From a virus, in IMG/VR virus record IMGVR_UViG_3300042401_001867, positions 1 through 60,482 of that record: DNA of 60,482 nucleotides. One strand, written 5' to 3'. A program made the translations under genes and the position numbers. The notes under the pieces were generated by a model. The model was not told the origin of the DNA, did no database searches, and saw nothing but the letters and a program-made list of their open reading frames with translations. Shown here one piece after another: positions 36,701 through 56,106 of this stretch (the first letter of the stretch is position 1; every line of letters begins with the position of its first letter).

Positions 36701-39700
36701 TTGGTTTAACTTTTCCAAGTATTTGCTTTTCCCCAAGCGAACGAGGACCGAGGTCGCTCGATATGACAGAAGTGTCGGTGACGAGGTAGGCAGAACCCCT
36801 AAGGGTCCTCATCCATCTATCCAGGAATTCCCTATCCTTGACATCGTCATACTGTGGGCGTTGGCGCAACTTAGCCTCTACTTCGGTTCTGTATGTTGCA
36901 ATATCTTTCGGAATAACCGAGCCAGCATTTCTACCAAAGTAACCATCCGTATTGACGGGTTCAGATGCCGGATAAGCACTGACAAAACCAAATTTTCCCG
37001 CGCCTTGTACCGCTTCAAGGGTCTGCTCGTTGTTCTTTATTTGTGGTTTAAGTGACTCTAACTCAGAGTTTATCTTAGACAATGCCCCAGCGCTGCTCAT
37101 CCGGGTTATGTCGTATGCAATTCCTTCCTTAAATCCGACCGCACCCAGACTGGTTGTATCGACGTCCAGCAATTTATTGAGAAACGCTGCTTCAAGCGCG
37201 TCTTTCGGTGTGTAGGTTTTTTCGCCTTCGTTGAAGGACTTCAGTATTGATTCGGAAGACGTCAATGACTCCTTCAGTCTGTCGTTATCTCTTTTTAGAT
37301 TGGATATTTGGTTTTGATTTAACGCACCCGTATTTCCAACCCCGCCCACGGCACCCAACTCCTCGCCACCAGTGGTCTTGGATGGGTCCAATACACCTCC
37401 ATCAAGTTCTGATTGACCGACATGTACAACAGAACTCCCATAATCTTCTGGCGCTAGCTGTTCGTACTCATCAAGGAGAAGCTGAAAATCATCCGGAGTG
37501 ATGTCTTCAATATCTAGCGTATTTTGTTGCGCACGAACTTCTTTTGTTTTTGCAAGATGTTCAGCAAGAACAATTTCTTTTTTAGACCTATCGAGTTTTT
37601 CTTCTGCCAAATTCACCAAAAACTCTACACTTCCAAATCTTTTTTCTATTTCTTCTTTGGTTATGTTTACTGGTGGTGTATCTGCATCGAACTTTCCGAT
37701 ATCCCTTTTCCAATCAGGATGGTTGGTTATAACCACCCCAAATTCTTCGCCCCTCCATTCCCCAGTTCTTTCTAGAACATCAAGTGCTTTCTCTAGATTA
37801 GCAACTCTTTCCTTGGCTTTAACGGAGCGTTCTTGCAGTTCCGCGAGATTCGACTCAGCAGTGGGGAATGTCTGAGGAGAGTCGCTTCTTTTTCCGGAAG
37901 AAAGACCAGGAGAGGAACGCCTAGTCGCTGGATTAAGCCTTCTCTCAAGTCTTCTTCCAATTGCTCCACTCTCTAGAACGATGTCATCTGTTTCGGTTGG
38001 TAGCAGTTCTCCATCGTTGGCAAACTTCGTAAGTTGACTCTCAGTCATTCTGACACGAGGACGCTTGTCTACACCGGCATGGAATTCCGAAGCAGCGTCT
38101 TCGATATCTTTAATCAATGCTTCAGGTGACTTTCTTGCTATTTCGTTAGCAACGGCAGGGTCTAGAGAGTCCCTTGACATGTCGTTCGTTACCTCGGTAG
38201 GGCTCTCGCCAGCAAGAATCTTCTTTAGGTCACCCATCGCGATTTGCGCCCTACTTGTTCTAACTTCTTTTCTTTGCTCGCGTGTCTGCGGAATACCAAG
38301 AACCTCGCGCCCTGAAGTCGGGTCGGACGAGGAACCTGATGAAGTCTTGTAAGGAGCTTTCTTCTTTGAGCCAGACTTATGGTCAGGGTCAAAGTCCGCA
38401 GGTTTTGGGAGGCTCGAAATGTTTTCGCCACGCTTAGCAAGCTCTTCATCAATCGACCTTAGCGTCGCCCTGTCTTGTCCTTGAAATCCTCTCGGGTCAT
38501 TCGCGTAGTCTGGGTCAAGGAGGCTTCTGTACACAGCAGCTCTCCTGTTAACCAACTCATCGACAGTCATGTTGCTCTTAAGCTTCGCCATTGCGCGACC
38601 AGTTTTAGGGTCAACTTCGTCCGGCTTGATGTCTGCCTCGTCTGGCTGGATGAGGGGAGTCTTAACCAACTCTGCGACATAATCCTCGGACGGTGGCTCG
38701 CCAAACGAACCGCCAGCCTTAATTACTTCACGCTTTATTTCTGTATTCTTTTCTTCGATTTCCACTTCTCGTTTTGGTTTTGACCCAGTAGATGGCATGC
38801 CATTTTCTCTGCGTTTTGCAACGTATTTATTAGATACTCTGTCAATCTTCTTTTTCGTTCCCTTGGCGTTTTGGGAAGCACCAGGACCCTCTTCCCCAAT
38901 CGAGAACGAGACTCTGTCGAGCACATCAATAACGTTGTCTTGTTCCTGGACTCTGACGACAATGGTTCCGTCGGGTCTTGTGTCTACGACCCTCAACTTC
39001 CCAGGTGGGATGGTCAGCAAACCCTCTTCGCCAAGTGGAGTTTCTCGTGTTCCGAAAAGCCCTCTGTCCCCTTTCGATACCTGAACTATGACGCGGCTCT
39101 TTTCTTTTCCCTTCCTGGTCAGAATTTCGCCATTCCCATCACGCACTTCGCCCGGCTTATGGGGAGATTCTTCGCTAATTATTCTTCCCGTTAGCAAGCC
39201 AGGGTTGTCGAGGTTTTCTTCAATAAGTTTAAATCCGTTTTTGACATCAAAAAACATTTCTGCTTCTATCTCCATGTCGTCCGGAATACTTGACTCATCC
39301 ATTGCTTCCATTACTGGAATGAGTGTGCGCTCAATTTTGTCTTCTAGCGTTGCCGATTCACTCTCTGGGGATAAGTCGCCAGCACTCCGCTGAGCCCTTC
39401 TGTATTTTCTGTTTATGTTTTTTACGGCAGAAACGCTTGAATCCGGGTCAAGAAGATTTGCGATGTCCGACTGAGCAGGGTCGCCAAGCCTCTCGACAGC
39501 TTTAATCTCATCTGCAGTCATCAAAACTGCATTTTCTTTTTGCATCTTTTTTGCATATTTGGCTGCGGCGCTATCAGATTTTACTTTCTTGGTCTTCTTT
39601 ATCGCTTGTTGTCTTGGCGGATTTACAATCTCGTCAATTCGCGTATCAAGTTCTCTTCTTTTCTTCGACCACTCTTTAGCGTCTTCAGGATTTCCGAATC

Positions 39701-42398
39701 GTGATTTATAGATTGCCCTGACTATCTTCTTGTCCTCAAGAAGCTCTGATTTCATTCCTTCGGAAATTCCTGGTTCTTTAAGCGATATTTCGATGTCGGC
39801 AAGCTTCTGTATAGCCTCGTCCGCGGTCATGCTGTCCGCTCTTTCTTTGAGGTTCTTTATATCCTGCCGACGTGCTCTTGCAGCCATCTCCTCTGGCTGG
39901 AGTAAGCCCTCGGCAAACATCGTCTGTCTAACCGACTCCCTCATCGACTTCATATCTTTTTTGCGCTTATCGCTATCAGAGCTACTAAATCTTTCCGCCC
40001 ATTTCTTTTCGATTAGCGATATGTATGCGTTTGTCTCTTTTATCTTGCGATTTATTTCCTTGAACTGTGGAGAGTCTTTGCTTTCTCCGCTAGCTTCCAG
40101 ATTGTCATATGCAGCATTGAGCGCCTCTCTTCTATATTCAAGCTCTGCAAGACTGCCAACAAAATCATCACTCGTAGTTGATTCGTCATTGGACCATTTG
40201 TCAATCTGCGATAGTCGTCCCTTATGTTCCGCTTCGAGTCTTCCCTTTACTTCCGCGATGCTGTTTCCGCTAAGTTCTGGGTCTGGTCCACGGTTTTCAT
40301 AGAAGCGAGCCTCTATGTCTCTCAACCCATCGGCGTCAGACCTTCTTCTAATATCCAGATATCTACCATCGGATATATCATCCATCCACTCAAGGGCAGA
40401 ATCTATGTCGTCTCCATAAACTAGGCCAAGGTCCCTTAGTGCCCAAAGCTCCGCTGTTGCCTCGAGGGCCCATACCTCTGCACCGTATTCTTCATTGAAA
40501 TACATCTTCGGGTAGTCGCCGGCCAGGAAGCCGACAACATCCGCACGGGAAAGTGCATTCTTGAGGGACTCAAGGTCAATCCCGTCGCTTGCTTGTTTCA
40601 TCAAACTAAAAACCATGTCGCTATTAAGTTTCTTAATGTCGTCGACGCGGACTGTTTCTCCCTTGCTGTTTAGGACACTTATAAAACCATTGGTCCTAAT
40701 CTGTCTTTCTGCCTCTCGTGAGAATGCCTGGAACTGAATGGTGTGAGCGATTTCATGCTTCATGATGTGTCTTGCAAAAGCTCTTTCCTCAACCATTGCT
40801 GCAAGCTGTTTTGAATGACCATCAACAGTCACCAGGAAATCCGTAAGTGCTTTTGCGCTCTCCGAGTCTGTTTTGCCACCAATAAAGTCTATTTTTATTC
40901 TTTCATTGGGGGCAAGACTGGGAATCATCGCTTCTTGATTATTCATTATTTCGGGAATATCAACATTGATTATGCTCATTAAGCGGTTGGTGTCTGGTGT
41001 TGTGAACCCCTCCGTTGAGGCCTCGTCCATCTCTTTGCCGTTTGGATTTTTGACTTGGAAATTTATTTTAGATATGGTCCTCATATGTTCTGGGTCCGCA
41101 ATGAAGGAGTCCAGAGATGCCTCTAGGAGCGCTCTTTCTGTTGTGTACCATCTTTCGGTATCTGCTTCAATCAGTTTTTTCTGTCTGTCTGGTGGCAGTT
41201 TCGAAAAGCCAGGTACGTGCGTGAGTCGAGCTCTCACAATCTTGTCAACATCTTCTGGTGAAAGCCTCGTGCTTGTATCTACAGTCCAGGCTCCGCTCTC
41301 CCTGAGCTTCTCAAAAACCTCGAAAACATCGTCATTGGTTTTTCTTTTTTCGTCAGTCCTTACGACACCCAACATGTCCATGAGGCTCGCAATTCCTATG
41401 TCCTGCTGTGCAAGCTTGTCTTGAGCACGAATCATTCCATCTACGAATACGCGTCCGTTTTCGGTTTTTTGTACTTCGCGCCATTTCTTAATATCTCGTA
41501 TTCTGTTCCCATCTTGGTCACGCCATACAGTGCGTCCAAGCCCTGGTATCCCGCCATTATCAAGCCACGAGACGAATTCGAATAACTTTTTTGTAGAGTT
41601 TTTGACTTTAGCGTCACCGTCTAGGTCTATTCCACTAGCCATCCGTTTGGCAAAGTCGAGTATCTCCGAAGCGGACACCCCGAAACAGTTTGTTCCAGTA
41701 CTATCGGTAAATTGGTTTGCGGCTGGAGTTCCTGGGGGACATCTAAATTTTCCATTTTCATCGACCATTATTCCGAAAGCGCTTGCCGCCCGTGCCAGCA
41801 AAGACCTGCCTCGCTGGCCGATAGTTCTTCCCGGAAGTCTCTTTACCTGGTAGTCGGTCGATTCACTTTTCGTACCCCCACTGAGACTGAACGGGTCAAG
41901 CAATTGCTCTGACTCTGGAATTATCTCGTCTGTTTTTTTATTTACTTTATATTTTCTTATTCGTAGTTGAGGTTTTTTTGCAAGTTCTTTTGCGTACTCG
42001 TCTGCCGTTAGGGATGGCTGCTTATCAATCCATCCGAAGTTTGGTTCCTTGATTGCAGATTTTCTAGATTTGATAGATGGGAATAACTTGAGGACTTTGC
42101 CGTCCTCCCACTTCTGGTTTGGGTCGTAGCTATAACCATTTGGTAGTTCGACCATACCTGGAGTACCGCCAGAATTTGTTCTCTTTTTTCCGTCCGTATC
42201 TTTGTACGTTTCGCTTCCAGAAGCAGACTCAAGTGCCTTGATTGAGAGACCGACGTTTAGTGTTGGTCTAGATATTGATTCATGTACAGCACTCTTGAAC
42301 GCAATTGCAGCGTCGTTCAAGTCCCTCTTACTTGCAAGAGGAGATATCAACCTCTCGGATGTTATCGTACGTGTTTTGAAGAACGGCTCACCCGTCAT
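33708..42398 (-). CDS. giant head-operon polyprotein with zincin, GNAT-like and ART-like modules (about 2896 aa)
   Basis: Start at ATG 42398 (MTGEPFFKTRTI) after AAAGGGCG; a longer frame to 42458 overlaps the previous gene. Modules in order: N-terminal region with CPPGTPAANQFTDSTGTNCF (about 225); a zincin-type motif HEIAH (548-552); long charged coiled coils (about 680-1000); LSSG sites at 1499, 1968, 2347 and FSSG at 2559; a GNAT-like block VPEDYHRRGHGRLMLSLAEK (about 2295-2315); an Ala/Gly-rich hydrophobic segment (about 2380-2420); and an end (about 2570-2896) with DRTSYGRGEALQSAHRPV and EPFEAQILGGF, resembling an R-S-E-type ADP-ribosyltransferase. I infer that it is cut at LSSG sites and packaged in the head. 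Enzyme activities are inferred from motifs only. Confidence 0.75.
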   Translation of the reverse strand: MTGEPFFKTRTITSERLISPLASKRDLNDAAIAFKSAVHESISRPTLNVGLSIKALESASGSETYKDTDGKKRTNSGGTPGMVELPNGYSYDPNQKWEDGKVLKLFPSIKSRKSAIKEPNFGWIDKQPSLTADEYAKELAKKPQLRIRKYKVNKKTDEIIPESEQLLDPFSLSGGTKSESTDYQVKRLPGRTIGQRGRSLLARAASAFGIMVDENGKFRCPPGTPAANQFTDSTGTNCFGVSASEILDFAKRMASGIDLDGDAKVKNSTKKLFEFVSWLDNGGIPGLGRTVWRDQDGNRIRDIKKWREVQKTENGRVFVDGMIRAQDKLAQQDIGIASLMDMLGVVRTDEKRKTNDDVFEVFEKLRESGAWTVDTSTRLSPEDVDKIVRARLTHVPGFSKLPPDRQKKLIEADTERWYTTERALLEASLDSFIADPEHMRTISKINFQVKNPNGKEMDEASTEGFTTPDTNRLMSIINVDIPEIMNNQEAMIPSLAPNERIKIDFIGGKTDSESAKALTDFLVTVDGHSKQLAAMVEERAFARHIMKHEIAHTIQFQAFSREAERQIRTNGFISVLNSKGETVRVDDIKKLNSDMVFSLMKQASDGIDLESLKNALSRADVVGFLAGDYPKMYFNEEYGAEVWALEATAELWALRDLGLVYGDDIDSALEWMDDISDGRYLDIRRRSDADGLRDIEARFYENRGPDPELSGNSIAEVKGRLEAEHKGRLSQIDKWSNDESTTSDDFVGSLAELEYRREALNAAYDNLEASGESKDSPQFKEINRKIKETNAYISLIEKKWAERFSSSDSDKRKKDMKSMRESVRQTMFAEGLLQPEEMAARARRQDIKNLKERADSMTADEAIQKLADIEISLKEPGISEGMKSELLEDKKIVRAIYKSRFGNPEDAKEWSKKRRELDTRIDEIVNPPRQQAIKKTKKVKSDSAAAKYAKKMQKENAVLMTADEIKAVERLGDPAQSDIANLLDPDSSVSAVKNINRKYRRAQRSAGDLSPESESATLEDKIERTLIPVMEAMDESSIPDDMEIEAEMFFDVKNGFKLIEENLDNPGLLTGRIISEESPHKPGEVRDGNGEILTRKGKEKSRVIVQVSKGDRGLFGTRETPLGEEGLLTIPPGKLRVVDTRPDGTIVVRVQEQDNVIDVLDRVSFSIGEEGPGASQNAKGTKKKIDRVSNKYVAKRRENGMPSTGSKPKREVEIEEKNTEIKREVIKAGGSFGEPPSEDYVAELVKTPLIQPDEADIKPDEVDPKTGRAMAKLKSNMTVDELVNRRAAVYRSLLDPDYANDPRGFQGQDRATLRSIDEELAKRGENISSLPKPADFDPDHKSGSKKKAPYKTSSGSSSDPTSGREVLGIPQTREQRKEVRTSRAQIAMGDLKKILAGESPTEVTNDMSRDSLDPAVANEIARKSPEALIKDIEDAASEFHAGVDKRPRVRMTESQLTKFANDGELLPTETDDIVLESGAIGRRLERRLNPATRRSSPGLSSGKRSDSPQTFPTAESNLAELQERSVKAKERVANLEKALDVLERTGEWRGEEFGVVITNHPDWKRDIGKFDADTPPVNITKEEIEKRFGSVEFLVNLAEEKLDRSKKEIVLAEHLAKTKEVRAQQNTLDIEDITPDDFQLLLDEYEQLAPEDYGSSVVHVGQSELDGGVLDPSKTTGGEELGAVGGVGNTGALNQNQISNLKRDNDRLKESLTSSESILKSFNEGEKTYTPKDALEAAFLNKLLDVDTTSLGAVGFKEGIAYDITRMSSAGALSKINSELESLKPQIKNNEQTLEAVQGAGKFGFVSAYPASEPVNTDGYFGRNAGSVIPKDIATYRTEVEAKLRQRPQYDDVKDREFLDRWMRTLRGSAYLVTDTSVISSDLGPRSLGEKQILGKVKPIFSVSAPKGGYNPLTSEDAKRNEWGKATNALMARAIRLEREGREVTPASVLGARRGKPLSDSNSSSVKLSSGARVSLKKRKIQLQKVSDAEKYLRNLDLQIAEVDLIDSETGKEIKSPIFSVAGRPMVLVDVNGIRIPFYQSTGKGGKENPTGKWYPIFGVGKSDLIFDREFKRFIDRGGWFNKGDTYESIDNYYDVPEFKRIATILNDIDDLTKINFYDVGVVASEGETLELLKKNGSTGYASSKLPKARMSVNDDLLKVINRDLTPYSTVGDAERSGGRRWDYINSVIDRIEKNRVKLDINSVSVAVDKDKLSVSKESNRIKSRDVQLTVKDKNGDAIKVSIESELETRFDDREVQNVTVRMRSNGTQVGVLYARTDIRGELGNQDKLTISDVLVPEDYHRRGHGRLMLSLAEKYNIGSEKINHSSKLSELGELFAGGTGSDSGRLSSGARSGTSRTQRVAGIAGGRATGRVLDAVLKRSGADEDTRERVKYGMNMAGALAAGGPAGFATALAVDVSRRAGREIAERGLEEAVQRGKITQQQMDVAMQAVNRVAPNGLPDPVVDKLADAWSVASDFIDERVATDENMQRLDEFGDVIRASGSEFVTNAGEVVDSAREKIGKRFRRGKNSKSATDSFSGSDDNTYEPAKTEFDDFSDPFSSGKRAGRSADAFRGEYNSRIGISKSTPNSAKPVSGYVVHRSHNEEKKRQIAASGKGNIGSDAIFEIGDTDVVGDGLTALGEIEVILKPEVSDRTSYGRGEALQSAHRPVSMNSSDADDIADALFNADGISSKEQNTEAMLHLLGAKMDKNFSSVGASRDENGKMSPVGMVDSGARGHEPFEAQILGGFKKNEVEGIHYPYSKVSKIAESEDISDVVSQNSMKSKLEKLGFTPEEIAYFYSMSGGKPINTASMTKLKEYRTAKKIKEQYEGMGIGYVKFAHPQGINIENPRSYDKTANQNARVDEILKKAIDAEIDAELKSTLDSIRKGQQLDLVVD

Positions 42399-42414
42399 GG
42401 CGGGTCGCCCTTTC

Positions 42415-43833
42415 CTAGAGAGTATCTGTTTCTGCTTCGAGGAGCTGGAACTCAACAAGTGACTTCATAAAGTCTCCATCAAGAGTCTCATCGTCTTTCT
42501 TGCTCATTCCTTCTCCACCAGCAACCCAATTAGCAGGAATCAAATTTTCCTTGCCGAGTTCTTTTGCTCTCTTCATGATGTGCTTCTTTGTGGCGTCCTT
42601 GTCCTTTGCTCGTCCAAATGCTTGGACTGCGTTACGGAGGTCGGTCTCACTAGCAATCGGGTATGAGCCATCTGGCATTGCCGTTCCAGCTTCTGCCATT
42701 GAAGTGCGCTTGTCTTCACTGAAGGCTCTCTTCAGAGCAATTTCTGCAGCCTCTGCTTCAATGTCTTCTGATTCCTCTGGTTCGTACTTGTCGTAGCCAA
42801 GAACCTCACCGTCAAGAGCGACGAATACGTCGTATGACTTGCCATCGAATCCTTCGATTTCTACGGCGTAAGAATCTATGCCTTCAAAGTTATCTGGCTC
42901 GACAGCAACAACATGTCCGTCAATTGACTTGACTGCAATCTCTGCTGCATCGGTGAAGCTGATGAGGTTCAATTCGTCAATGGCTGCCTTTTGCTCAAAG
43001 ACACTTTCGTCAAGCTTGTGCCATCCCATAACTTCTGCTGATGTTCCATCAATGAAAACCTCAACTGCTTTTCCATCTTTTGCCTGAACATCAACAACGA
43101 ACATGTCGGCGTCTGGCGAGTAACCAGAGTCGATGACTTTTCCTTCAAACATGTCTTCGGCCATGCCTTCTGCCTCAAGCAAACCTGGCATTCCTTTTTC
43201 TGCAATGCAGCCACCTGGGCAGTCATCACAAACCGAAGTTGCACCATCATAGGACTTGCGCTCTATCGCGCAAACATAATCATGGTCACCGAAGTCTTCT
43301 GACTTAATTCCCATGGATGCGATTCTCTTCTTACGGAACTTGTCCATCATGAAATTGACCTTTTCGGCCTCTGCCATGTCCTCTTCGTCCTCGTTGTCCA
43401 TTTCGTCTTCTGTTAGTTCTTCTTCCTCTTCGTCTTCTTCAGACATTTCTTCGTCTTCTTCAGACATTTCTTCGTCTTCTTTTTTCTTAAACTTACGCAT
43501 GGCGGTGTTGATTTTCTCTTCACCCTCCATCATCTCTTCTTCTTCTTCTTCTTCTTCGGAATCCATATCTACACCCATGCCCATGCCCTTCATTGGCTTC
43601 TTTTTAGGCATCATCTCGTACATTTTTTCCATGTCTTCTTCTGACATCTCTTCATCAGCAATATCCAAATCAGTTGCTGGTACCATCTTCATCTCGACCG
43701 GCATTGCACCACACTTGCCGCACACCTTTGCGCCAGGCGTATAGCCACATGCAGATGCATCCAACCCCTTTGCGCATCTGAGCACAGCGCCTTCACTGTC
43801 GATGCCCACTGTTGTCTTGTCGTCGTAAGCCAT
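42415..43833 (-). CDS. acidic head protein with zinc ribbon and PepSY-like repeats, possible scaffold (472 aa)
   Basis: Modules: an N-terminal Cys cluster (CAKGLDASACGY, CGKCGAMPVEM); a very acidic low-complexity segment (about 85-155, runs of E with repeated EEDEEMS); a Cys block CAIERKSYDGATSVCDDCPGGC; two PepSY-like units with FVVDVQAKDGKAVEVFIDG and YAVEIEGFDGKSYDVFVALDG; and an end with DGSYPIASETDLRNAVQAFG and RAKELGKENLIPANW, a block common near phage capsid proteases. It lies directly after the protease polyprotein, where HK97-like phages can carry a scaffold. No LSSG site. Scaffold role is inference. Confidence 0.65.
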   Translation of the reverse strand: MAYDDKTTVGIDSEGAVLRCAKGLDASACGYTPGAKVCGKCGAMPVEMKMVPATDLDIADEEMSEEDMEKMYEMMPKKKPMKGMGMGVDMDSEEEEEEEEMMEGEEKINTAMRKFKKKEDEEMSEEDEEMSEEDEEEEELTEDEMDNEDEEDMAEAEKVNFMMDKFRKKRIASMGIKSEDFGDHDYVCAIERKSYDGATSVCDDCPGGCIAEKGMPGLLEAEGMAEDMFEGKVIDSGYSPDADMFVVDVQAKDGKAVEVFIDGTSAEVMGWHKLDESVFEQKAAIDELNLISFTDAAEIAVKSIDGHVVAVEPDNFEGIDSYAVEIEGFDGKSYDVFVALDGEVLGYDKYEPEESEDIEAEAAEIALKRAFSEDKRTSMAEAGTAMPDGSYPIASETDLRNAVQAFGRAKDKDATKKHIMKRAKELGKENLIPANWVAGGEGMSKKDDETLDGDFMKSLVEFQLLEAETDTL

Positions 43834-43969: not shown

Positions 43970-46900
43970 TTAACGTTGTTTTCGTGAGTTGTCGCTAAGT
44001 TGAAGAAGTCTGGTCCATTGGGCTGGAGTCAAAAATCCCTTTGATTGAAACTGGGAGAAAACACTTTGGGCGAATCCGCTCCATCTGGCATTCTCGGCCC
44101 AACCAATCAATTCGTTTTGCATTCTTGGGGTTATATTCTCTGGCGCTCCATTGTTTTTACGGCCAGAGGAAAGGCTTTCGGTAGCTTGGTTCCCAGTGTT
44201 TGAGATTCTTCTAGCTGCGCGTCTTCCGCTGCTCATTGAAGAGCCACCCTTGATTGAATCAACGGTCTCGTCAAGGCCAAACTTCTTGTTCAGTCTGTCA
44301 ACTATTTCCTTAACTTCGTCGTCGTTGTATCGAAGGGCTTTTCCAACATTTTTGCTGAACTTCACTCCTCCGTCTTTCTCAAAAGCTTTGAGTCTCGTCT
44401 GAACCTTTGTTGCTCCAATTACATCATCCAACTCAGACCCCTTGGCCTTTATACCGGCTTTGGCAATAGCGTCACTAACCTTTTTCCAAAGGTCGAACTG
44501 CTTTATCGAATTGTCGAATTCAACACCGTCCTCACCGAAAATATCTCCAGCATTTGGAATAACTCCGCTTTCGACCAACTGTTCGATTACTCCGGTTGGG
44601 ATTCCGCTCCGCTTCCATTTCTTAATCTGGTCCTCTGTGGGCGTAATTCTCTCGCCATCAACCTCGAAGGTAAGTGCTTCTGCTATTTCTGCGATGGATT
44701 TTACTCCCAGTGCGTCCGTCAGGGTGGAGAGTCCAAAACCGCCTTTGGCCGTTTCTCTAGCGACGAACTGCTCGGTCACTTCGAATCCTTCTGGCGAAAG
44801 AATACCGTACATGGCGATTCCTTCATCCATGTAATCAGCGTATTCTTCGCGGCTTAACTGATTTCCCCTTCTGTAATCGTACCAATAAGGTTTTGAATCA
44901 AAACCCCAAATCGCCTCGATAGCCGAATCTGCCGCACCAAGGTCGGCACCATTAAAAAACATTCTGTCAACAAGGGTGTTCACATCAGCCTCGGAAATAG
45001 CAGCACCTGGAGCATTGAGTTTTTCTGCTTCTGCTTTGCTTATTCCCATAAGGGCGGCAATTTCGGTAGTGTCCAGAATTTCGCCATTATCATCTTTTAA
45101 TATGAGCTTGAGCTTGCTCGCATCTAGCATCCACTTGCCATCTGGCGACCTGTCGTTGTTCTCGGAAAGTTTTCCTACCTTTATGGAAGTGGCTGCAGAT
45201 ATCTGCTCCCCTATTCTTCTTCTCTTTGTTGAATCCGGGAACTTAAATCTTCCAGAACCAAGACCACCAACATCGAACTCATCCTTGCTTGGCGCCGGCT
45301 TTTTCTTTCCTGGGATTGTTGCTGCACGCTGTCTCACACCGTCTGCGAAAGCCTGACGGTCTTCGTCAGACATTGGTCGGCGCTTTGAGCCTTGCGTTCT
45401 CTTTTTTCTCCCAGAGCTAAGTCCTGGGTCGTTTCCTGGCTTAAGGAAATCGTTGACGTTGCCTTCGACTATGTCGGAGCCAGGGAGATTTCTGGACGCG
45501 AAAACATCTTTAGGCTTTCCGGTAATATCTTCTCTATCTGGATTTACTCCGCTATTTTCAAAGTCTATCTGAGTGTCGTACAGGCTGGTCAACTCTTTTT
45601 CAAGACCATTTACGGCGTTGTAGTAAAAGTTTTTTAGACTCGAAGCAAACTCTTCAGGAGATGTGTCTTTGTCTGTGGAGTCAATAAGTTTTTTGATTTC
45701 AGCTATTTGCTCCTCATACGAGACAGGGGAGGACCTATCCTCTGCATTGTCAACACCTTCGAGTGCTTCGATGATTGATTCCGCATCTCTTTTCATCCAG
45801 TAAAGAGCATCTTCGACATCTCCGTCAGCATCTTGAATATGTCGCTCCATCGTTGATTCAAAATCAACAACTTTTCCTCTACGGTTTGGATTTGCAAAGT
45901 TACTTTCTAGCTTCGCGATGCTCTCTTTCATTTCATCGATTTCATCGTTAAGGCTGGAAAATTGCTCTTCTCTCCAACTTAGTTGGTCATGAATGGCATC
46001 TATTGCATCGTCGATGTCTGTCAATAAGTCAAAGTCTTCGTCCGATACATTCGCATACTGGTCAATCTGGAAAATGTAAGCGTCAGCAGGCACCTTCTTG
46101 CCATCGAGCAGGGAGCGAATCAAATCATTTCTCAGGGCAACAAGTCTGTCGAGAGAGTTAACTGCTTCTTGGTGGTCTTCAAGGGCGATTCTTTGAACTG
46201 AACCACCTCTACCTTCCCTGCCTAGCGTTCCGCCAAAAGCGTTTTGCACAACCATGCTCTCGTATCTGGCGTCGTCTTCAATTTCCTTACGCACTTCATC
46301 AAGTGGTCTGACTTTTCCAGAACTCAATCTGTCTGAAGTGATATTTCTGGTTCTCTGCGCAGAGGAACGAGGAGCACCCTGTGGAACACCAGGCTGTGTT
46401 GGGTTGTATGGGGCATCTGCGCCATCAATTATCCCCTCAATCTTGTGAAGACTGAAGCTTCTGTATTGACCTGACTCTTCGTCAAGACCAATGAAATAGA
46501 CCCCTCCACCCTTCTTGGCCATCATCCCGGTTGGATAAACCATCCTTGGCTTACCGTTGTAATTGAATGAAACGACTTCTCCGTTTCTGCGTATGGCGTC
46601 GAAGTCATACTTCTCCACAGAAACCATCGGAAGGTTCAGAGCGATGTATCTTGCGTTTGAGCCAGCTTCATCGGTCCTCTTTAGGGCGTCTGTCACTAAA
46701 CGAATTTCTTCAACTGGCTTGTCGTCGTATCTTGAACGAGCACCCGAGGAGAACCTACTGTTATCTCTGGACAATTCGGCCTGAATATCGTTGGCCTCGT
46801 CGGCCCAGTCTTCTGGACTCCAATCAAGGCGCGATTCGTCTATCTCGGCAATCATTCGAACATACTCTCGCCTGTCCATGCGCTCACGAGAAATTAATTT

Positions 46901-49900
46901 TGAGTTTTCGTATTCAGAATCTCTACGCGCTTCTTCCTCGTTAAGCATTTCGGCAATTTTTTCAATGTCCGTCTCTTGTTTGAACTTCTTTAGCCATTCG
47001 CGTCGGCCGTCTTCGTAGTCAAGAGTCCATTGCGCAAGGTCTGCTGGGGACTTGAAGCCTTCGGAACTTATACCCGATACATCCCAGTCAATCTCGTTGT
47101 CTTCGCCGACACCGTCCATGAACATCAACTCTGCGAACCATTCACCGGAATCATCTTGACTCATACTCCACTGATTAACGCCTCTGTCGCCGAGGGATGC
47201 GCTTGCTTCGTAGTAGTTCTTGTCTCCATCACGATACGGTCTTATCATCGCGAATCTGTCCAACACTTCGTCGTCTGGCATGCCAAGTTCGTCGGCGAGA
47301 GTTCTTGCTGAACCATCGATATTCCTTATATATTTATCTCTCGCCCCAGACGAAAGCGAAGGAGCGATACCCCCATATGAGGAGTCTCCATTCCCAGGGA
47401 GAACACCAGCCTCAGCAACTTTTTTGCCGAGTTTCTTACTCATCGATGGTGACTTGCTTATTGCAAAGTCGTGAGCTTTTTGTGCTTGCTCAAACGCGCT
47501 CTTTAGAGCATCTGGGTCTGACCTAAGTTTCTTCAACCATGAAGCAAGGTATTGAGCGTGGTCTTCTCTTGGCTCTGGAGTTAAGCCGTGTGCCGTCATA
47601 AAGAATGCCGAAGCTATTTCTGCAACGAGTTCTTCCTGTGCGTACTCAGGGCTTCCAAAGTCACCCAGGTGGTCTCTGTTTAGACGGTCCTTATGTCCAG
47701 TCCAGTGCATCAGCTCATGAGCAAAAACTGCGTAATAAGCTTCCTTGCTCTTGAAAGAGGAGAATGGAGGGAGCGTTATTTCGTCTGTAGACGGTCTATA
47801 GAACGCTCTGTCACCGACATGGTTGACTATTGCACCAACTTCCGAGAGTGCTTTTTCGAGTTCGTCAACGCGCTCTTCTTCTGAGAGTTGCGGCATCTTG
47901 AATTGCTCTTTGTCAATTCCTTCTATCTGGTCAAGGTTGAATACGTGTCCTGTTTTGAAGAAGACCGAACCTGACTTGACTTCATTTCCGTCGGCATCTT
48001 TCTTTGCAGGAATGATTGTCGGGATGATTATCATCGTTCCCTTTTCACCCTTGCGAACTGTTCCGCCCTTTTCTTTCCACTGGTTGAAACCAGCCCATAT
48101 TCCGGTTTCGTAATTCATTGCGTCTTTTCTGAACATCAACATCAGTGAGTTGATTCCAGAGTATGGACGATTGTTATTCATGGCGTTACGCGGAAGAGAA
48201 GCATCTCTGTGCCAAGGGAATTCCCACTTGCCACCTTCTGTCTCTGCTTTTTGAATTTGTTCGATGAGCTGCTCTTGGACGCTTCTATAAACTTCGTCCA
48301 ACTTTCCTGAAGACAAACGCTGTCCAGGATTCATATCTCCGATTGGGCTTACGTACTTCTTTTCCCCAGACCCAAGAACATCCCCACCCTGTCTTGATAA
48401 CCAATAGTTTGCTTCCTTGTCTTGGTCGCGCATTAATTGGAGGTGTGTTTGCTCTATACGTCTAACCTGTTCACGCGTCATGCCGAGCGCCTTGGCTGTT
48501 TCAGCAAGAGATTCCCCTCCCATGCGACGGTTATAGACCGCCTCATTGAAGGACAGTTCTGCTGCTTCTTCGGCAGCCATGCGTGCCTGGTCTTCTCTGT
48601 ACGCCTCAATGTCATCGAGGTCTAGATTCTGCTGCGCTCCGCGCTGACGGGAGATATGGCGCAACTCTGCTTGACGGACTTCCTGACGCTTCATACCGAG
48701 TGCAGCACCAGTTTCGGCAAGTGTCTCTCCACCCATGCGGCGTTCGAATATTTCTCTGTCGGAAATTATTTGTTGTTCTTTATTTATCTTTCTTCCCGAC
48801 GAAAGATTTCGTGACTGACGGTTGTCATAAAGAGTTTCCTGGTCATCTTGATACAGGGCTGTTGCGGCTCTGGCAAAGTTTGTACTGAAGTCGTCGCCAT
48901 CCTCTTTGTATTCAGACAGGTACTCGTTCTGGCGGGAGTCGTTGTCGTACCAGTTTTCAAGAACTCTTTTTGCTTCATTCTCGCTTGAACCGAAATCAAT
49001 CAGAGCACTCGTAAGCTCCCGCTCCGTTTCTCTGTAATAGGCTTCATCTTCTAGGCCATCATCGTCATCACCAGCATCTGGCAAGCCATCAGAACGACCA
49101 GAGGAAAGCTTGCTATCTTTGTTCAACTCGTCGTATAGGGGGCCTCCCTTTTTGTAATAGTCGTAGTCTGGGCTGGCCTCATATTCGGCTACTGCTTTCA
49201 AAAAGTTCCGCATGTCCTCTTCGGACATGGAGTCGTTTATTGCGCCACTGAGATTGTAATTGGTTTCATGTGTGTAGTATCCTGGCTCACTGTAATCAGA
49301 TTTCTCAACACTGTATTTAGTGTTCAGGTAGTCCCAAACATCGTCTTGGTCACCGTAACTAACTAATTCTTCGTACACCTCTCTTTGAAGGTCGCTATCC
49401 TGTGGACCGCGACTAATTCCTCTTGCTATGTATCCTCTCTCGGCAGAAAGTCCATCAATTTCTTTTAGGCGTTGAGCCAATATCTCTTCTCGGTTTGGTT
49501 TGTCCTTGCCGCCAGAAGAAAGACCAGGCTTTTTGTTTTGACGATTCTTTAGTATTGAGGAAACTTCCCCGACAAACCTATCGGCGCTTTGGTTGTTGTT
49601 GAAACGTCCAACCTTCTTTCCATCAATCTCTAGGTCGACGGACCCGTTTGGCGCGCTGCGCATGTTCACAGAAAGACCAGAGCCGTCACCATCTAGCGAT
49701 TCCGCAAAGGACCTCGGCGAAGGAGGTGGTTTTCTTTTTCCCGAAGAGAATATGCCATCATCAAAATCACTCTGGTTTCTTCTCACGCCTCTTTCAAGCC
49801 TGTCTCTGGACCTTTGTTCGTCCGACATAAAATTTGCGCGGTACTGTGCGTCGAATAGAGCTTGCTGCAAATTCTCAAGAAACGCAAGTTTGTTTTGACC

Positions 49901-52900: not shown

Positions 52901-53920
52901 CTCGCTTTCCTCTGCGCCAAGCTCTGGTTTCTTTTTGTCTTCAGAACCTTCATATTGAACGGGGGTCAACGGAACCATAATCATTCCACCATTACCTGGC
53001 TTCATGGCAACAGGCATTGACATCGCAGGATTATTTGTTGAAGGCTTGTTCGGCTTGCCCATGATTCCAGGCATTGGAGACGGACCAGATTGAATTGCCG
53101 GTTTTGGCTGTTCTGCATGAATTAGTTCTGGCTTACCAAACATGTACTCACTTCCAGTGAAGTGGTATCCAATTCTGAATTTTCCTTTTCCAGGCTTAAC
53201 AAAAACTACAGAATTCTCTGTCGCCTCAACAACCATTACTGGTCCTGCGGCACGGCGCGAAAGCTCTGCAACCACACCAGCAAGCTGTGGTCCACTGATT
53301 CTCTGTGACATACCTTCGTCGAAGATTCCATCTCGTCGTGGTTCCGGCGATGTCGGAGCACCCATTACCATAGGCATCATTCCGTGCATTTTCTCTTCGT
53401 CGCTCTTGACCGAGATTGTTCCAGTCAGTTGATTTGCGCCATGAAGAACAGGTGATACTTCGTAGAGTTCCACTTCGTAGAGGACGTTTGCTTGAAGGTT
53501 GTCATCGTATTGCGCTCTAAGGGTTTTGTACCCAATCGACCACTCTTGCTCTTCGCCAAAGAAAGCGACGTTTGCAAACGCTTCTTTGCCTTTTTCTGAC
53601 TGAAGGTTGAACTGCACCTTTGCGTACAGACCACCAATTCCAGCCATCTTCATCTTCATTGGGAGTCTTTGGTCCGATGCTGGGACTTCGTAAATTTCTA
53701 GAACTTTACCAATTGGGTCGTTCCAGTTGTGACCCCAGACAACGCGAGGCTTGCGGCGTTGAAGGCTCTTGGCGAATGCGCCAGTAGCACAGATGTCGCC
53801 AACGGAGTCTTTATTGCCAATTCCGGAAACGAAACATTCGACAATACCCTCTAGTTCATCTAGTTTGATGAGACCATTCGAGGCCTTGTATTGAATGTTT
53901 CCGAAGTTAGAGTTTGGCAT
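43970..53920 (-). CDS. prohead protease fused to giant LSSG polyprotein (3316 aa)
   Basis: Residues 1-175 are an S78-type (HK97 gp4-like) prohead protease: LEGIVECFVSGIGNKDSVGD, His64 in VVWGHNW, Ser128 in EEQEWSIGY and Glu154 in ELYEVSPVLHGAN. Then a Cys-rich unit (CSNCVLYLGEGKC, about 380-410) and a region with GRRIAGRAIDR. From 655 on, 18 motifs [LFMP]-S-S-[GA] begin at 655, 835, 852, 970 (LSSA), 1080, 1254 (PSSG), 1265, 1391 (FSSG), 1467, 1605, 1706, 1869, 2189, 2390 (FSSG), 2532, 2834, 3229 (MSSG) and 3250. Recognisable modules between them are two tandem HTH units (about 1726-1756, 1796-1826), and an ArdC-like protein (1869-2188). A usual S78 protease is about 200-250 aa, so about 3,000 aa is extra. 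I infer self-processing in the prohead with release of packaged proteins. Confidence 0.85.
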   Translation of the reverse strand: MPNSNFGNIQYKASNGLIKLDELEGIVECFVSGIGNKDSVGDICATGAFAKSLQRRKPRVVWGHNWNDPIGKVLEIYEVPASDQRLPMKMKMAGIGGLYAKVQFNLQSEKGKEAFANVAFFGEEQEWSIGYKTLRAQYDDNLQANVLYEVELYEVSPVLHGANQLTGTISVKSDEEKMHGMMPMVMGAPTSPEPRRDGIFDEGMSQRISGPQLAGVVAELSRRAAGPVMVVEATENSVVFVKPGKGKFRIGYHFTGSEYMFGKPELIHAEQPKPAIQSGPSPMPGIMGKPNKPSTNNPAMSMPVAMKPGNGGMIMVPLTPVQYEGSEDKKKPELGAEESELAQSLVRIAGKYGKFDEDGDGIWAGYYPPAENKVKNIGVKCSNCVLYLGEGKCKILDLKVEDEGKCRFAIIPDGVVVGFGKKEYSDILDDEEIKMIEDIEAKYPGEFILGTFRNLVKKRRKKRKSYKTLDEWGTEERELEEKGLDPFLAHEYSYVIPVNPEDAFEFKSIIDPVLDYHRIDTIVNEYGIVINSPLSQESKDAISTATASAYSFLKKKIASEDIEEKALGRRIAGRAIDRPSIGGKKRRGGRGMGIPSGDLDPRTRRDSNLDGTLFDNVPGWEQPDPTPSGPGSIDNPKPSKRQLADAKKPDGKEKLSSGKRNERRHADRSADMEKQFPNAEENQKRIDHEAIAKAWEDQGLGWEEVPRYNADKNFSSDYLRGREIGVNQARVMWDGDSVRKRPVKFNEKARASQEYSNWYSSYAKSVSAYLDAHSKDDSDNWDGIESALKDDVKAKYPDTQDWAKDDIATLNEYLNDIGLLDGVQKPAPRKSRDSLSSGGKKPEAPKRTTGKLSSGSEDRNTNNEDLVRAIQEAVMPTGLGRGGKPDSLPAGDARRDLERRWKNYSRSGGKLTYQEWYAKDQEKLNQEASRYFQGVVDRTSRNGSRGSRSRTSNIGSAGDTPKPRRSSDKLSSAPRKDDKKPIDLGSSDSLAKTDDLVNEYWELKNRKRPESADDKYKNTNRLKEIRRELESRKPEPAGFSDYKEKPVERIAEERNPEAISRALDESIDKPFVPYRGASRLSSGASTKRERRLAALESALESGDKEEQKAILKEIFRGQQYFAPEVQEQFGERVAGQRLVWLGKEGNSYTPDKEITDEELADFIRYKFIRDMEGSIADGIDPEEGVSDEDGLSMEQIEEGLPYINLYDRAIEILEEENKDKAFSPPSSVEDVADIVGSEELLFDALQREINKRRPSSGSEDRNTNLSSGRKLSDKEEMDAADESLQKLLNGFDGWDDEEWEFDNQLDASVERWASANEDMPWINSSVEEMIDDMSVDESIEGQNKLAFLENLQQALFDAQYRANFMSDEQRSRDRLERGVRRNQSDFDDGIFSSGKRKPPPSPRSFAESLDGDGSGLSVNMRSAPNGSVDLEIDGKKVGRFNNNQSADRFVGEVSSILKNRQNKKPGLSSGGKDKPNREEILAQRLKEIDGLSAERGYIARGISRGPQDSDLQREVYEELVSYGDQDDVWDYLNTKYSVEKSDYSEPGYYTHETNYNLSGAINDSMSEEDMRNFLKAVAEYEASPDYDYYKKGGPLYDELNKDSKLSSGRSDGLPDAGDDDDGLEDEAYYRETERELTSALIDFGSSENEAKRVLENWYDNDSRQNEYLSEYKEDGDDFSTNFARAATALYQDDQETLYDNRQSRNLSSGRKINKEQQIISDREIFERRMGGETLAETGAALGMKRQEVRQAELRHISRQRGAQQNLDLDDIEAYREDQARMAAEEAAELSFNEAVYNRRMGGESLAETAKALGMTREQVRRIEQTHLQLMRDQDKEANYWLSRQGGDVLGSGEKKYVSPIGDMNPGQRLSSGKLDEVYRSVQEQLIEQIQKAETEGGKWEFPWHRDASLPRNAMNNNRPYSGINSLMLMFRKDAMNYETGIWAGFNQWKEKGGTVRKGEKGTMIIIPTIIPAKKDADGNEVKSGSVFFKTGHVFNLDQIEGIDKEQFKMPQLSEEERVDELEKALSEVGAIVNHVGDRAFYRPSTDEITLPPFSSFKSKEAYYAVFAHELMHWTGHKDRLNRDHLGDFGSPEYAQEELVAEIASAFFMTAHGLTPEPREDHAQYLASWLKKLRSDPDALKSAFEQAQKAHDFAISKSPSMSKKLGKKVAEAGVLPGNGDSSYGGIAPSLSSGARDKYIRNIDGSARTLADELGMPDDEVLDRFAMIRPYRDGDKNYYEASASLGDRGVNQWSMSQDDSGEWFAELMFMDGVGEDNEIDWDVSGISSEGFKSPADLAQWTLDYEDGRREWLKKFKQETDIEKIAEMLNEEEARRDSEYENSKLISRERMDRREYVRMIAEIDESRLDWSPEDWADEANDIQAELSRDNSRFSSGARSRYDDKPVEEIRLVTDALKRTDEAGSNARYIALNLPMVSVEKYDFDAIRRNGEVVSFNYNGKPRMVYPTGMMAKKGGGVYFIGLDEESGQYRSFSLHKIEGIIDGADAPYNPTQPGVPQGAPRSSAQRTRNITSDRLSSGKVRPLDEVRKEIEDDARYESMVVQNAFGGTLGREGRGGSVQRIALEDHQEAVNSLDRLVALRNDLIRSLLDGKKVPADAYIFQIDQYANVSDEDFDLLTDIDDAIDAIHDQLSWREEQFSSLNDEIDEMKESIAKLESNFANPNRRGKVVDFESTMERHIQDADGDVEDALYWMKRDAESIIEALEGVDNAEDRSSPVSYEEQIAEIKKLIDSTDKDTSPEEFASSLKNFYYNAVNGLEKELTSLYDTQIDFENSGVNPDREDITGKPKDVFASRNLPGSDIVEGNVNDFLKPGNDPGLSSGRKKRTQGSKRRPMSDEDRQAFADGVRQRAATIPGKKKPAPSKDEFDVGGLGSGRFKFPDSTKRRRIGEQISAATSIKVGKLSENNDRSPDGKWMLDASKLKLILKDDNGEILDTTEIAALMGISKAEAEKLNAPGAAISEADVNTLVDRMFFNGADLGAADSAIEAIWGFDSKPYWYDYRRGNQLSREEYADYMDEGIAMYGILSPEGFEVTEQFVARETAKGGFGLSTLTDALGVKSIAEIAEALTFEVDGERITPTEDQIKKWKRSGIPTGVIEQLVESGVIPNAGDIFGEDGVEFDNSIKQFDLWKKVSDAIAKAGIKAKGSELDDVIGATKVQTRLKAFEKDGGVKFSKNVGKALRYNDDEVKEIVDRLNKKFGLDETVDSIKGGSSMSSGRRAARRISNTGNQATESLSSGRKNNGAPENITPRMQNELIGWAENARWSGFAQSVFSQFQSKGFLTPAQWTRLLQLSDNSRKQR
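47356..48316 (-). other. ArdC-like anti-restriction module between two LSSG sites
   Basis: Residues 1869-2188 of the giant protein. N-terminal half: PWHRDASLPRNAMNNNRPYS, then INSLMLMFRK and GGTVRKGEKGTMIIIP, the ArdC single-stranded-DNA-binding domain. C-terminal half: HELMHWTGHKDRL (HExxH at 2068-2072) and YAQEELVAEIASAFF (third zinc ligand Glu), the ArdC/LtrC zincin domain. Plasmid ArdC proteins are about 300 aa and shield incoming DNA from restriction; the 320-residue gap between two LSSG sites matches a full-length one. Confidence 0.8.
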
Positions 53921-54039: not shown

Positions 54040-56106
54040 CTAAATGAACTGCCCGAACTTCCAAGCTCTTCTTGATTCATCCTCTGCTAATTCAAATCTT
54101 TGCTTAGCCATCAAGTTCGCATACATGCTCACGAGTGCTCCCCTAAACGAGGCAGCCCGTTCTTCTTCACCCATCACCGAAAGTGAATTGAACATAATAG
54201 AAGAGACATTGTTAAAATTCTCTATATTTATGTTCTTTATTCTTATCATTTGCGAATTTATCTGGGCATTTAGGTCGGACTGGTTCATGGTCTTGGCGGT
54301 CTTGTTCCCGTATGCGCTGTTGTAAGTATTGTAAGCGTCCTGGATAATCGCCGAAATAACAGGTCTAATATCCTCGTCCATCTGTTTGTCCCATACTTCA
54401 GGGGACAGGATTGAGTCTATTTCTAGCGTCCCAGCAAACAGTGATTTCTTGGCTTTTGAGCCGCCTGCCTTCTCTAGGACAACTCTCTGTTGTCTCTCGA
54501 CCACTCTCTCGATACTCCGATTGAGAATTTCATTCCACCTATCAAGCGACTCTGTGCTCTTGGATTGAAGTTCATCTTCTATGGATTTATACATCATTTC
54601 CCCAGTTGTCGCAGAAGCTGCCCCCGCTGGAACTGGCTCTGCAGTTGTCGCGACCGCAGCCAGTGCTTCTGGTGGGATTGTGCTTTGGGCGAGTTGGTCT
54701 GGACCTGCTGGCGCCGCTGGGGCTTGTGTTTCTGCAAGGGCCCCCTGCATTGTGTTCGGGTCAAGTGGTGGTTGACCCTCCATTCCAGGCATTGGGACCT
54801 CTGGCATCGGAGCCCCAGGGACCGGAGCGCCAGGAGCGCCACCCATTTCAACGGACGGCTTATCTTCCATTTTCTTCTTAGTGTTAGCAATAGGAATGAG
54901 GTTTGGATTCATGAGCAGTGAGTCGGCAAGGTCGGCTTCTACTTCTTTTCTTCCGGAGCCGGTTCGGTACTCGTTGTTACTGATGAGCCCAGATTGGAAT
55001 TCCTGCATCAGGTACCTCTCTCGCTCTTGTTTGTAGAGTTGGAGAATTGGCACTTCTCTTGTGTCAAAGTCAACGTAATACTCTTCATCCAGTTCGTCGA
55101 GCGAGCGAGCAAGTGGCTCTAGATGGGGGAGCATTGTCTCCATCCAGAAAACGCGTATTTCTTCGCTTGCATTGGAAAATGTTCTTCCTGCAGCATTGCC
55201 AATTACCGATTCTGGGACACCGAACGAAGCAAGAATTTCTTCCTTGGTAATTTGTCGCATTTGCGCGTAAGCGACATCTCTTGGTGAGGCAGAAGTGTCG
55301 ACGTAGTCAACTCCATCATCAGCGGAGATGACAGTTGTGTGTCCAGCCCTTCCGATGTTTCCACGGAACCTGCTCTTTAGCTCCTCTTTATCGTCGTCGT
55401 CAATTTCTCCACGAAGAACCAAAAGACCGCCTGGCCTTCCATCGTTTAGCAGGTAGTTCCTGTTGTAGAGCTTTGCAAGGTTTTCTATTTCAATAGCAAC
55501 ACCAGCAGACTCAAGTGGGGTTAGAGACAGGTATGGGTCTAGTGGGTGTGGTCGTCTAATCCAGCACACGTCCTCTGGCTTCATGATTACTTTTTGACCA
55601 TAAGGCATTTGAACTTCATATCCAGAAACAAACTTTTTTGCATCTGGTATTGGTGATGTTGATTGTGGAGGCAGAAGATTGAGTCCAATGATTCGTCCGT
55701 CCCTGCCACGAACCTTCTCAATGAATACACCACGAGTACCGAGCAGCAACTGTGCCGACATTCTGTATCTAAAAATAAACGAGTTTTCGCCAATGTTTGA
55801 TTTAGTGTTCAAAACCTCAAGCAAAGAATTGTTTTTCGCCTTATTGCCAATGAGTATTTCTCCAGTTGGAGAGTTGTCTTTTCGCAGGATGATTGGCAGA
55901 CGCGCCTGGTTTCCAGCAATTGCATCAATACATCTAGCCACCCACGTGACCTTCTGCATGCCTTCTCGGTATGCGCGCTCAACATCCCACGAGTCTCGAT
56001 ATGGTCTTCCTGCGTAGCTTGGATTCTGCGCTACGGGCGCGCCGGGTCCAAGCTCCTTGGACTGCGCATTTGCGAGTGATTTATTACTCGATTGATTCCA
56101 TGCCAT
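54040..56106 (-). CDS. portal protein with long C-terminal extension
   Basis: 688 aa. The first 400 residues are a HK97-type portal: YREGMQKVTWVARCIDAIA, LLEVLNTKSNIGENSFIFRY, VCWIRRPHPLDPYLSLTPLE, NRNYLLNDGRPGGLLVLRGE and EEILASFGVPESVIGN are characteristic. The following 120 residues are Pro/Ala/Met-rich and probably disordered, and the last 150 are a helical domain (RWNEILNRSIERVVERQQR). Twelve copies form the DNA entry ring at one vertex. First large gene of the head operon, 119 bases upstream of the protease polyprotein. The portal alone is normally shorter, so the tail may recruit internal proteins. Confidence 0.92.
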   Translation of the reverse strand: MAWNQSSNKSLANAQSKELGPGAPVAQNPSYAGRPYRDSWDVERAYREGMQKVTWVARCIDAIAGNQARLPIILRKDNSPTGEILIGNKAKNNSLLEVLNTKSNIGENSFIFRYRMSAQLLLGTRGVFIEKVRGRDGRIIGLNLLPPQSTSPIPDAKKFVSGYEVQMPYGQKVIMKPEDVCWIRRPHPLDPYLSLTPLESAGVAIEIENLAKLYNRNYLLNDGRPGGLLVLRGEIDDDDKEELKSRFRGNIGRAGHTTVISADDGVDYVDTSASPRDVAYAQMRQITKEEILASFGVPESVIGNAAGRTFSNASEEIRVFWMETMLPHLEPLARSLDELDEEYYVDFDTREVPILQLYKQERERYLMQEFQSGLISNNEYRTGSGRKEVEADLADSLLMNPNLIPIANTKKKMEDKPSVEMGGAPGAPVPGAPMPEVPMPGMEGQPPLDPNTMQGALAETQAPAAPAGPDQLAQSTIPPEALAAVATTAEPVPAGAASATTGEMMYKSIEDELQSKSTESLDRWNEILNRSIERVVERQQRVVLEKAGGSKAKKSLFAGTLEIDSILSPEVWDKQMDEDIRPVISAIIQDAYNTYNSAYGNKTAKTMNQSDLNAQINSQMIRIKNINIENFNNVSSIMFNSLSVMGEEERAASFRGALVSMYANLMAKQRFELAEDESRRAWKFGQFI

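Follow-up and report, generated by a model that had tools for sequence, protein, structure and literature searches.

The window analyzed in this study is the whole 60,482-base IMG/VR virus record IMGVR_UViG_3300042401_001867, in which an open reading frame (ORF) of 3316 amino acid (aa) residues begins with a prohead protease domain and contains the anti-restriction protein ArdC as an internal module. We propose, with a probability of about 0.6, that this ORF encodes a cargo polyprotein headed by the protease, from which ArdC would be carried into the phage head, freed there and used to protect the incoming genome. The identity of ArdC, the borders of its module, the purifying selection on it, the presence of the protease in cis and the association between the bordering motif and the capsid protein junction are supported by the results presented below.

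The ArdC module and the prohead protease

The initial annotation had placed both halves of ArdC, and little else, between the LSSG peptides at residues 1869 and 2189 of the polyprotein. Both halves were found there, as ArdcN (PF08401) at residues 1876–1994 (E 6.4e-26, 91.4 bits with a cut-off of 22.6) and MPTase-PolyVal (PF18818) at residues 2020–2142 (E 6.8e-42), and the module also matched phrog_7245 (E 1.6e-82). In a phmmer search, module residues 8–292 aligned nearly end to end with residues 8–291 of the ArdC of plasmid R388 (6sna, E 1.9e-43; about 2e-43 for PDB entries 6sna/6i89). Given that the alignment spans residues 8–291 of R388 ArdC, the module corresponds to one complete ArdC. The remainder of the module consists of LSSG and a tail, module residues 300–320, which is disordered in the AlphaFold model (predicted local distance difference test score, pLDDT, <50) and lies just before the next LSSG. 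The proposed coordinates of the module, 47356–48316, were correct at their end; the module starts at 47357, as the next Leu codon has its first base at 47356.

Structure prediction of residues 1869–2188, which had been suggested as a check, recovered the ArdC fold. The AlphaFold model, built from 15 sequences with a mean pLDDT of 77.5, matched 6i89 in Foldseek (E 2.9e-18) and aligned with R388 ArdC in VIA over 265 residues (Z 24.1, root-mean-square deviation 4.9); the VIA-align rows ranked lower than the two ArdC entries, with Z < 5, were disregarded. Moreover, H200, E201, H204 and E229 of the module were invariant in 21 of 21 aligned ArdC modules. Judged from the sequence and the model, residues 1869–2188 are a full-length ArdC whose HExxH motif and third metal ligand are intact. 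The module is also under strong purifying selection. Of nine comparisons, five allowed dS to be estimated, and the ratio of nonsynonymous to synonymous substitution rates (dN/dS) in these was 0.042–0.088 for the three pairs that include the window and 0.038–0.048 for the two others. The remaining four comparisons, three of them window pairs, were saturated. Matches to the module were found in 57 of 50,697 phage records, all with identities below 60%.

The N-terminal part of the polyprotein was identified as an HK97-family (S78) prohead protease. Residues 26–176 matched PF04586 (E 3.2e-9, 37.6 bits with a cut-off of 21), and the N-terminus matched the head maturation protease family phrog_80 (E 3.4e-25). 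It scored below the equivalog cut-off of NCBIfam TIGR01543 (49.8 bits with a cut-off of 59, E 3.7e-13) and is therefore regarded as a relative of that family rather than an equivalog. WGHNW and EWSIGY, which we take to be the catalytic His and Ser motifs, are visible in the domain. The protease ORF is directly downstream of the portal gene.

The repeated motif, the capsid junction and the module borders

The motif that borders ArdC recurs throughout the polyprotein, of which LSSG is the commonest 4-mer. The 3316-aa ORF contains 16 [LFM]SSG sites, whereas 0.25 were expected and at most 3 were obtained in 5000 shuffles, which rules out a chance origin. The neighboring 2916-aa ORF contains 4 sites, compared with 0.22 expected and a maximum of 3 in 5000 shuffles. 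The sites are not a DNA repeat, as their Leu, Ser and Gly codons differ from site to site. The protease ORFs retrieved up to that point gave 197 distinct XSSG contexts, which began with L in 159 cases, F in 16 and M in 5; K or R preceded XSSG in 122 and followed it in 124. LSSG-free lineages have other repeats, which are GFAS (13 copies in a 4905-aa ORF and four in a 1938-aa ORF), GMAS (nine copies in a 2330-aa ORF) and GLRS (in short ORFs). The words LSSG, GFAS, GMAS and GLRS are all consistent with hydrophobic-x-Ser, a pattern resembling the sites after which known prohead proteases were reported to cut, L/I-X-E for T4 gp21, which thereby frees ejected internal proteins (PMC9026906), and A-X-E for SPN3US gp245 (PMC10052503).

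A related peptide occurs in the major capsid protein (MCP) of the window, in which QLSSREIKSIGEMF follows the conserved N-terminal part and precedes the mature body. There, a hypervariable stretch with LSSR separates the conserved N-terminal ~72 residues from the conserved SIGEMF. Scans of viral contigs yielded 16 loci for ArdC and at least 80 each for the capsid protein and the protease. The partner gene was sought in 25 records of the protease and ArdC scans (present in 12) and in 29 capsid loci (present in 26), which were chosen from the at least 80 mostly by length and spread of junction type, and all 38 resulting pairs were used. The MCP junctions were scored by eye, and contigs with at least 3 [LFM]SSG in the protease ORF were counted as LSSG-bearing and those with none as LSSG-free. 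L[ST]S was present at the junction between the delta domain and the mature MCP in 18/18 LSSG-bearing and 2/20 LSSG-free contigs (Fisher p 5.7e-9, which overstates the case because the pairs are related by descent). In some GLRS lineages with short ORFs the junction was SLRSE, and the junctions of the GFAS and GMAS lineages fitted hydrophobic-x-Ser more poorly. An AlphaFold model of MCP was dropped as a means of placing the cut, as its pLDDT was 39 and it was confident in the N-terminal coil only.

If LSSG, like the Ser-Gly linkers that are common between domains, were only a flexible linker, the polyprotein would remain an uncut multidomain protein, either inside the head or in the cytoplasm. 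The virion RNA polymerase of phage N4, which was reported to be packaged unprocessed (PMC5512222), is a precedent. However, the specificity extends beyond Ser and Gly, with L, F or M in 180/197 XSSG contexts and K or R frequent on either side, other lineages have a different and equally fixed peptide, and the same L-[ST]-S is found in the capsid junction, all of which make an uncut polyprotein unlikely.

Comparisons with relatives, whose contigs may be fragments, placed the borders of ArdC at the same motif. When the polyproteins of 20 records, including the window, were cut at the motif, the segments sorted into module families that are swapped among phages. ArdC (family 4) was 316–321 aa long wherever no contig end shortens the module, had varying neighbors and was always excised at the motif. 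For instance, a ~650-aa UvrD-like helicase module precedes ArdC in L109, L010, L105 and L015 and follows it in L129, L132, L135 and L140. When all ORFs retrieved up to that point were searched by blastp with the ArdC module as query, 31 non-identical matches were obtained, 30 of them with the N-terminal end, and these were tallied by hand. A motif was at or shortly before the ArdC start in all 30, even though the position of the module and its neighbors varied widely: [LFM]SSG lay no more than 34 residues upstream of the match in 28 (offset 0 in 19, 6 in 2 and 15–34 in 7), and the other two starts had GFAS (L235) and LASG (L223).

Given that this query began at LSSG, the search was repeated with a query extended at both ends by 150 aa of window sequence. 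For most relatives whose flanks differ, the matches then started at query positions 131–156 and ended at 438–476, where the module itself starts at 151 and ends at 470 (e.g., L129, L218, L219, L220 and L224–L228). Some matches extended outward where the neighbor was shared or weakly alike (L221, L222, L229, L230 and L231). Similarly, among 647 local alignments, 18% of starts and 14% of ends were within 5 aa of the motif, compared with 5% of random positions, a positive but modest result.

Proposed cargo mechanism and its alternatives

Prohead proteases work inside the prohead, which in T4 was reported to contain 72 protease copies (PMC9026906). We infer the cleavage and its exact bond, the packaging, the ejection and the anti-restriction activity along the following lines. 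The N-terminal HK97-type prohead protease would carry the attached modules into the prohead, and cargo fused to it would need no targeting signal to be packed. The protease would cut at [LFM]-x-S/ (the slash marks the bond), that is, LSS/G in the lineage of the window, with LSS/R as its counterpart in the capsid protein, and the cargo would thus be freed at sites that the protease already recognizes there. A free ~36-kDa ArdC and the other modules would be released within the head, either ahead of DNA packaging or while it proceeds. ArdC would then exit with the DNA and shield the incoming genome, or ssDNA (single-stranded DNA) derived from it, against restriction by the host, which, judging from R388 ArdC, would be mainly of type I. 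Judged from sequence comparison, the phage protease quite probably processes the LSSG sites. The chances that ArdC is delivered with the DNA appear evenly balanced, and early anti-restriction is only tentatively assigned as its function, by analogy.

The anti-restriction effect of R388 ArdC was reported to be directed at HsdRMS and to persist in E229A, its protease active site being dispensable (PMC7213743). Restriction-protection assays with HExxH mutants, which the initial annotation had suggested, would therefore not discriminate, and we think that the DNA-binding half probably matters most for protection, because R388 ArdC does not need its protease active site. R388 ArdC was also needed in the recipient, and its supply in the donor was of no help (PMC7213743), which by analogy fits a need for ArdC inside the infected cell.

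More generally, we somewhat favor a cargo system in which prohead proteases carry exchangeable modules that would be freed at a lineage-specific word (LSSG, GFAS, GMAS or GLRS) co-evolving with the capsid cleavage site, with ArdC as the commonest recognized cargo beside helicase, exonuclease and helix-turn-helix modules. If so, a tailed phage would pack many anti-host proteins at once through fusion to its prohead protease, and ArdC would fill the role that P1 and T4 give to separate proteins. Cleavage products of known mass are predicted, which virion proteomics could check directly, and the repeated word would be a sequence-readable cleavage code for spotting injected phage effectors.

Several points weigh against the cargo mechanism. 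The literature on these uncultured phages yielded no results on virion proteomics, cleavage, packaging, ejection or anti-restriction, and such repeats are absent from the three isolated phages whose near proteases were read. The association between motif and capsid junction tracks phylogeny, which leaves the 38 contigs non-independent, and both features were present in the window from which the idea arose. Two contigs (L237 and L238) have LTSR in the capsid protein without LSSG in the protease ORF, and the capsid junctions of many LSSG-free relatives do not clearly resemble their own repeat, e.g., SVPTRQLQSIG with GFAS. The position of the cut in MCP is uncertain, as HK97 practice, which we take to be a cut before S-L-G, would put it a few residues downstream, at IK/SIG. 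The known substrate of R388 ArdC is ssDNA, whereas a tailed phage delivers double-stranded DNA. Finally, ArdC is present in 18/18 LSSG-bearing paired contigs, and cleavage by its zincin and by the S78 protease are therefore inseparable in the LSSG lineage.

The last point bears on the possibility that the ArdC zincin, instead of the S78 protease, cuts the polyprotein. Such a role was proposed by Iyer et al. for the MPTase domains of polyvalent proteins (PMC5512222), and the HExxH motif is invariant in 21/21 modules. However, G031 (GMAS ×9, 2330 aa) and G034 (GFAS ×4, 1938 aa), both possibly fragments, have repeats without ArdcN or MPTase-PolyVal in the contig, and the motif is associated with the capsid junction, a substrate of the prohead protease, so that we consider the zincin an improbable cutter. 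It is likewise improbable that ArdC acts late in the producing cell, for instance on replicating ssDNA or against superinfection, its location in the protease gene merely coupling expression. Although R388 ArdC works when expressed in the cell (PMC7213743), joining it to a prohead protease, with motifs at intervals, would be costly if coupled expression were the only gain. A function of the modules mainly as scaffold or core, to be fragmented and lost from the head ahead of DNA packaging, has parallels in T4 (PMC9026906) and SPN3US (PMC10052503), where most core fragments and propeptides were reported to exit the head, and is very doubtful given the strong purifying selection on ArdC, its intact active site and the recognizable enzymes among the other modules, such as UvrD-like helicase and RNase_T exonuclease.

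The proposed release of ArdC as head cargo can be compared with several known systems. The initial annotation had likened it in purpose to the Dar proteins of P1, and the comparison is apt: the prohead protease Pro of P1 was reported to cut the N-termini of both MCP and DarA (PMC12810830), and anti-restriction in P1 is borne in the head, as we infer here. Different from the window, P1 uses separate genes and one N-terminal cut. By analogy, the restriction inhibitor IPI of T4 is an equally good comparison, as a short L/I-X-E motif is common to capsid and cargo and IPI is an ejected anti-restriction protein; T4, however, was described as using separate N-terminal capsid-targeting sequences, not protease fusion (PMC9026906). 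The prohead proteases of SPN3US and phiKZ were also reported to cleave both the capsid and proteins inside the head at many positions, which in SPN3US share one short motif, but their substrates are separate gene products, and the SPN3US cuts mostly strip N-terminal propeptides.

ArdC of R388/pSa (PDB 6i89, 6sna) has the same order of halves, length range, fold and metal-binding residues as the module, but is a stand-alone plasmid protein, whereas the module is motif-bordered and internal to a phage protease polyprotein. Neither ArdC nor multidomain polyvalent proteins are new (PMC5512222), and the latter, as described there, are mobile-element proteins with ArdC-N and MPTase and predicted processing. 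Similar to them, the window ORF combines MPTase or ArdC-N with several domains of the conflict type in a single polypeptide. It differs in that their assemblin-like peptidase, if present, was described as C-terminal (PMC5512222), whereas S78 is N-terminal here, in the repeated peptide that marks its sites, and in the frequent presence of ArdC. In the literature searched, which mostly excluded subscription journals, no account was found that combines an N-terminal prohead protease with a lineage-specific repeat and motif-bounded swapping. The initial interpretation was supported in part: the ArdC fold, the module borders and the protease in cis withstood independent tests, and the predicted polyprotein processing is well supported by the sequence comparisons.

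Relatives and other features of the window

Gordonia phage GMA6 and Brevibacterium phage Cantare are among the phages with the nearest named proteases (40–41% identity). Different from the window ORF, their capsid proteases are about 418–485 aa long and lack a repeated motif, and the GMA6 tail matches a separate window ORF (42415–43833; Table 1). The C-terminal part of this ORF matched the C-terminal parts of the proteases of Gordonia phages GMA6 and DalanDe, with identities of 53% (over 90 aa) and 51% (over 85 aa). The match of the GMA6 tail to a separate ORF suggests that modules were put between protease and tail, or that the protease gene was split. The DalanDe capsid protease (L018) has about 1100 residues ahead of its S78 domain, unlike those of GMA6 and Cantare. 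From the nearest named phages, our guess is an actinobacterial host. Three contigs with this protease (L243–L245) are labelled as metagenome-assembled genomes of Phycisphaerae and Gammaproteobacteria and are probably mis-binned virus contigs.

UvrD-like helicase modules were found in the polyproteins of L129, L010, L219, L224 and L231, and that of L219 additionally matched RNase_T exonuclease and KTSC. The 4905-aa protease ORF at L235:556-15270 contains GFAS repeats, five KTSC matches, ArdC, which starts after GFAS, and DUF2958. In L246 (G045:30000-37500), the polyprotein is broken into two frames within one module, which may reflect either a sequencing error or programmed frameshifting; the second frame holds ArdC, still behind LSSG. 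In the window, a 1214-aa stretch upstream and a 1128-aa stretch downstream of ArdC had no match in the 50,697 phage records.

Table 1. Coordinates of the features discussed, in window positions.
Feature	Position	Strand	Remarks
Portal protein	54040..56106	minus	phrog_2662, E 4.3e-60
Polyprotein ORF, 3316 aa	43970..53920	minus	Prohead protease and 16 [LFM]SSG-delimited segments
HK97-family (S78) prohead protease domain, residues 1–180	53381..53920	minus	Pfam PF04586, phrog_80, TIGR01543
Module before ArdC, residues 1706–1868	48317..48805	minus	Sigma-70 region 4-like helix-turn-helix, PF04545, E 2.1e-6
ArdC module, residues 1869–2188	47357..48316	minus	ArdcN and zincin; HELMH at module residues 200–204; E229
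Upstream LSSG, residues 1869–1872	48305..48316	minus	Predicted cleavage LSS/G
Downstream LSSG, residues 2189–2192	47345..47356	minus	Motif match
Module after ArdC, residues 2189–2389	46754..47356	minus	No match in family search
Module, residues 2390–2531	46328..46753	minus	Sub-threshold WYL, PF13280, E 5.3e-4, 20.4 bits (cut-off 21.8)
Acidic separate ORF	42415..43833	minus	C-terminal part matches C-terminal part of the single-ORF protease of GMA6 and DalanDe
Second giant ORF, 2916 aa from listed TTG	33708..42458	minus	4 further [LFM]SSG sites
Major capsid protein	27629..29005	minus	phrog_10, E 2.9e-58; PDB HK97-fold matches

The second giant ORF is a possible in-trans substrate of the protease. 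Searches of Pfam, PHROGs and NCBIfam assigned it to no confident family, the best match being phrog_16266 (E 0.005). By eye, it has a GNAT-like stretch just ahead of the LSSG at residue 2367 and a zincin-like stretch with HEIAH.
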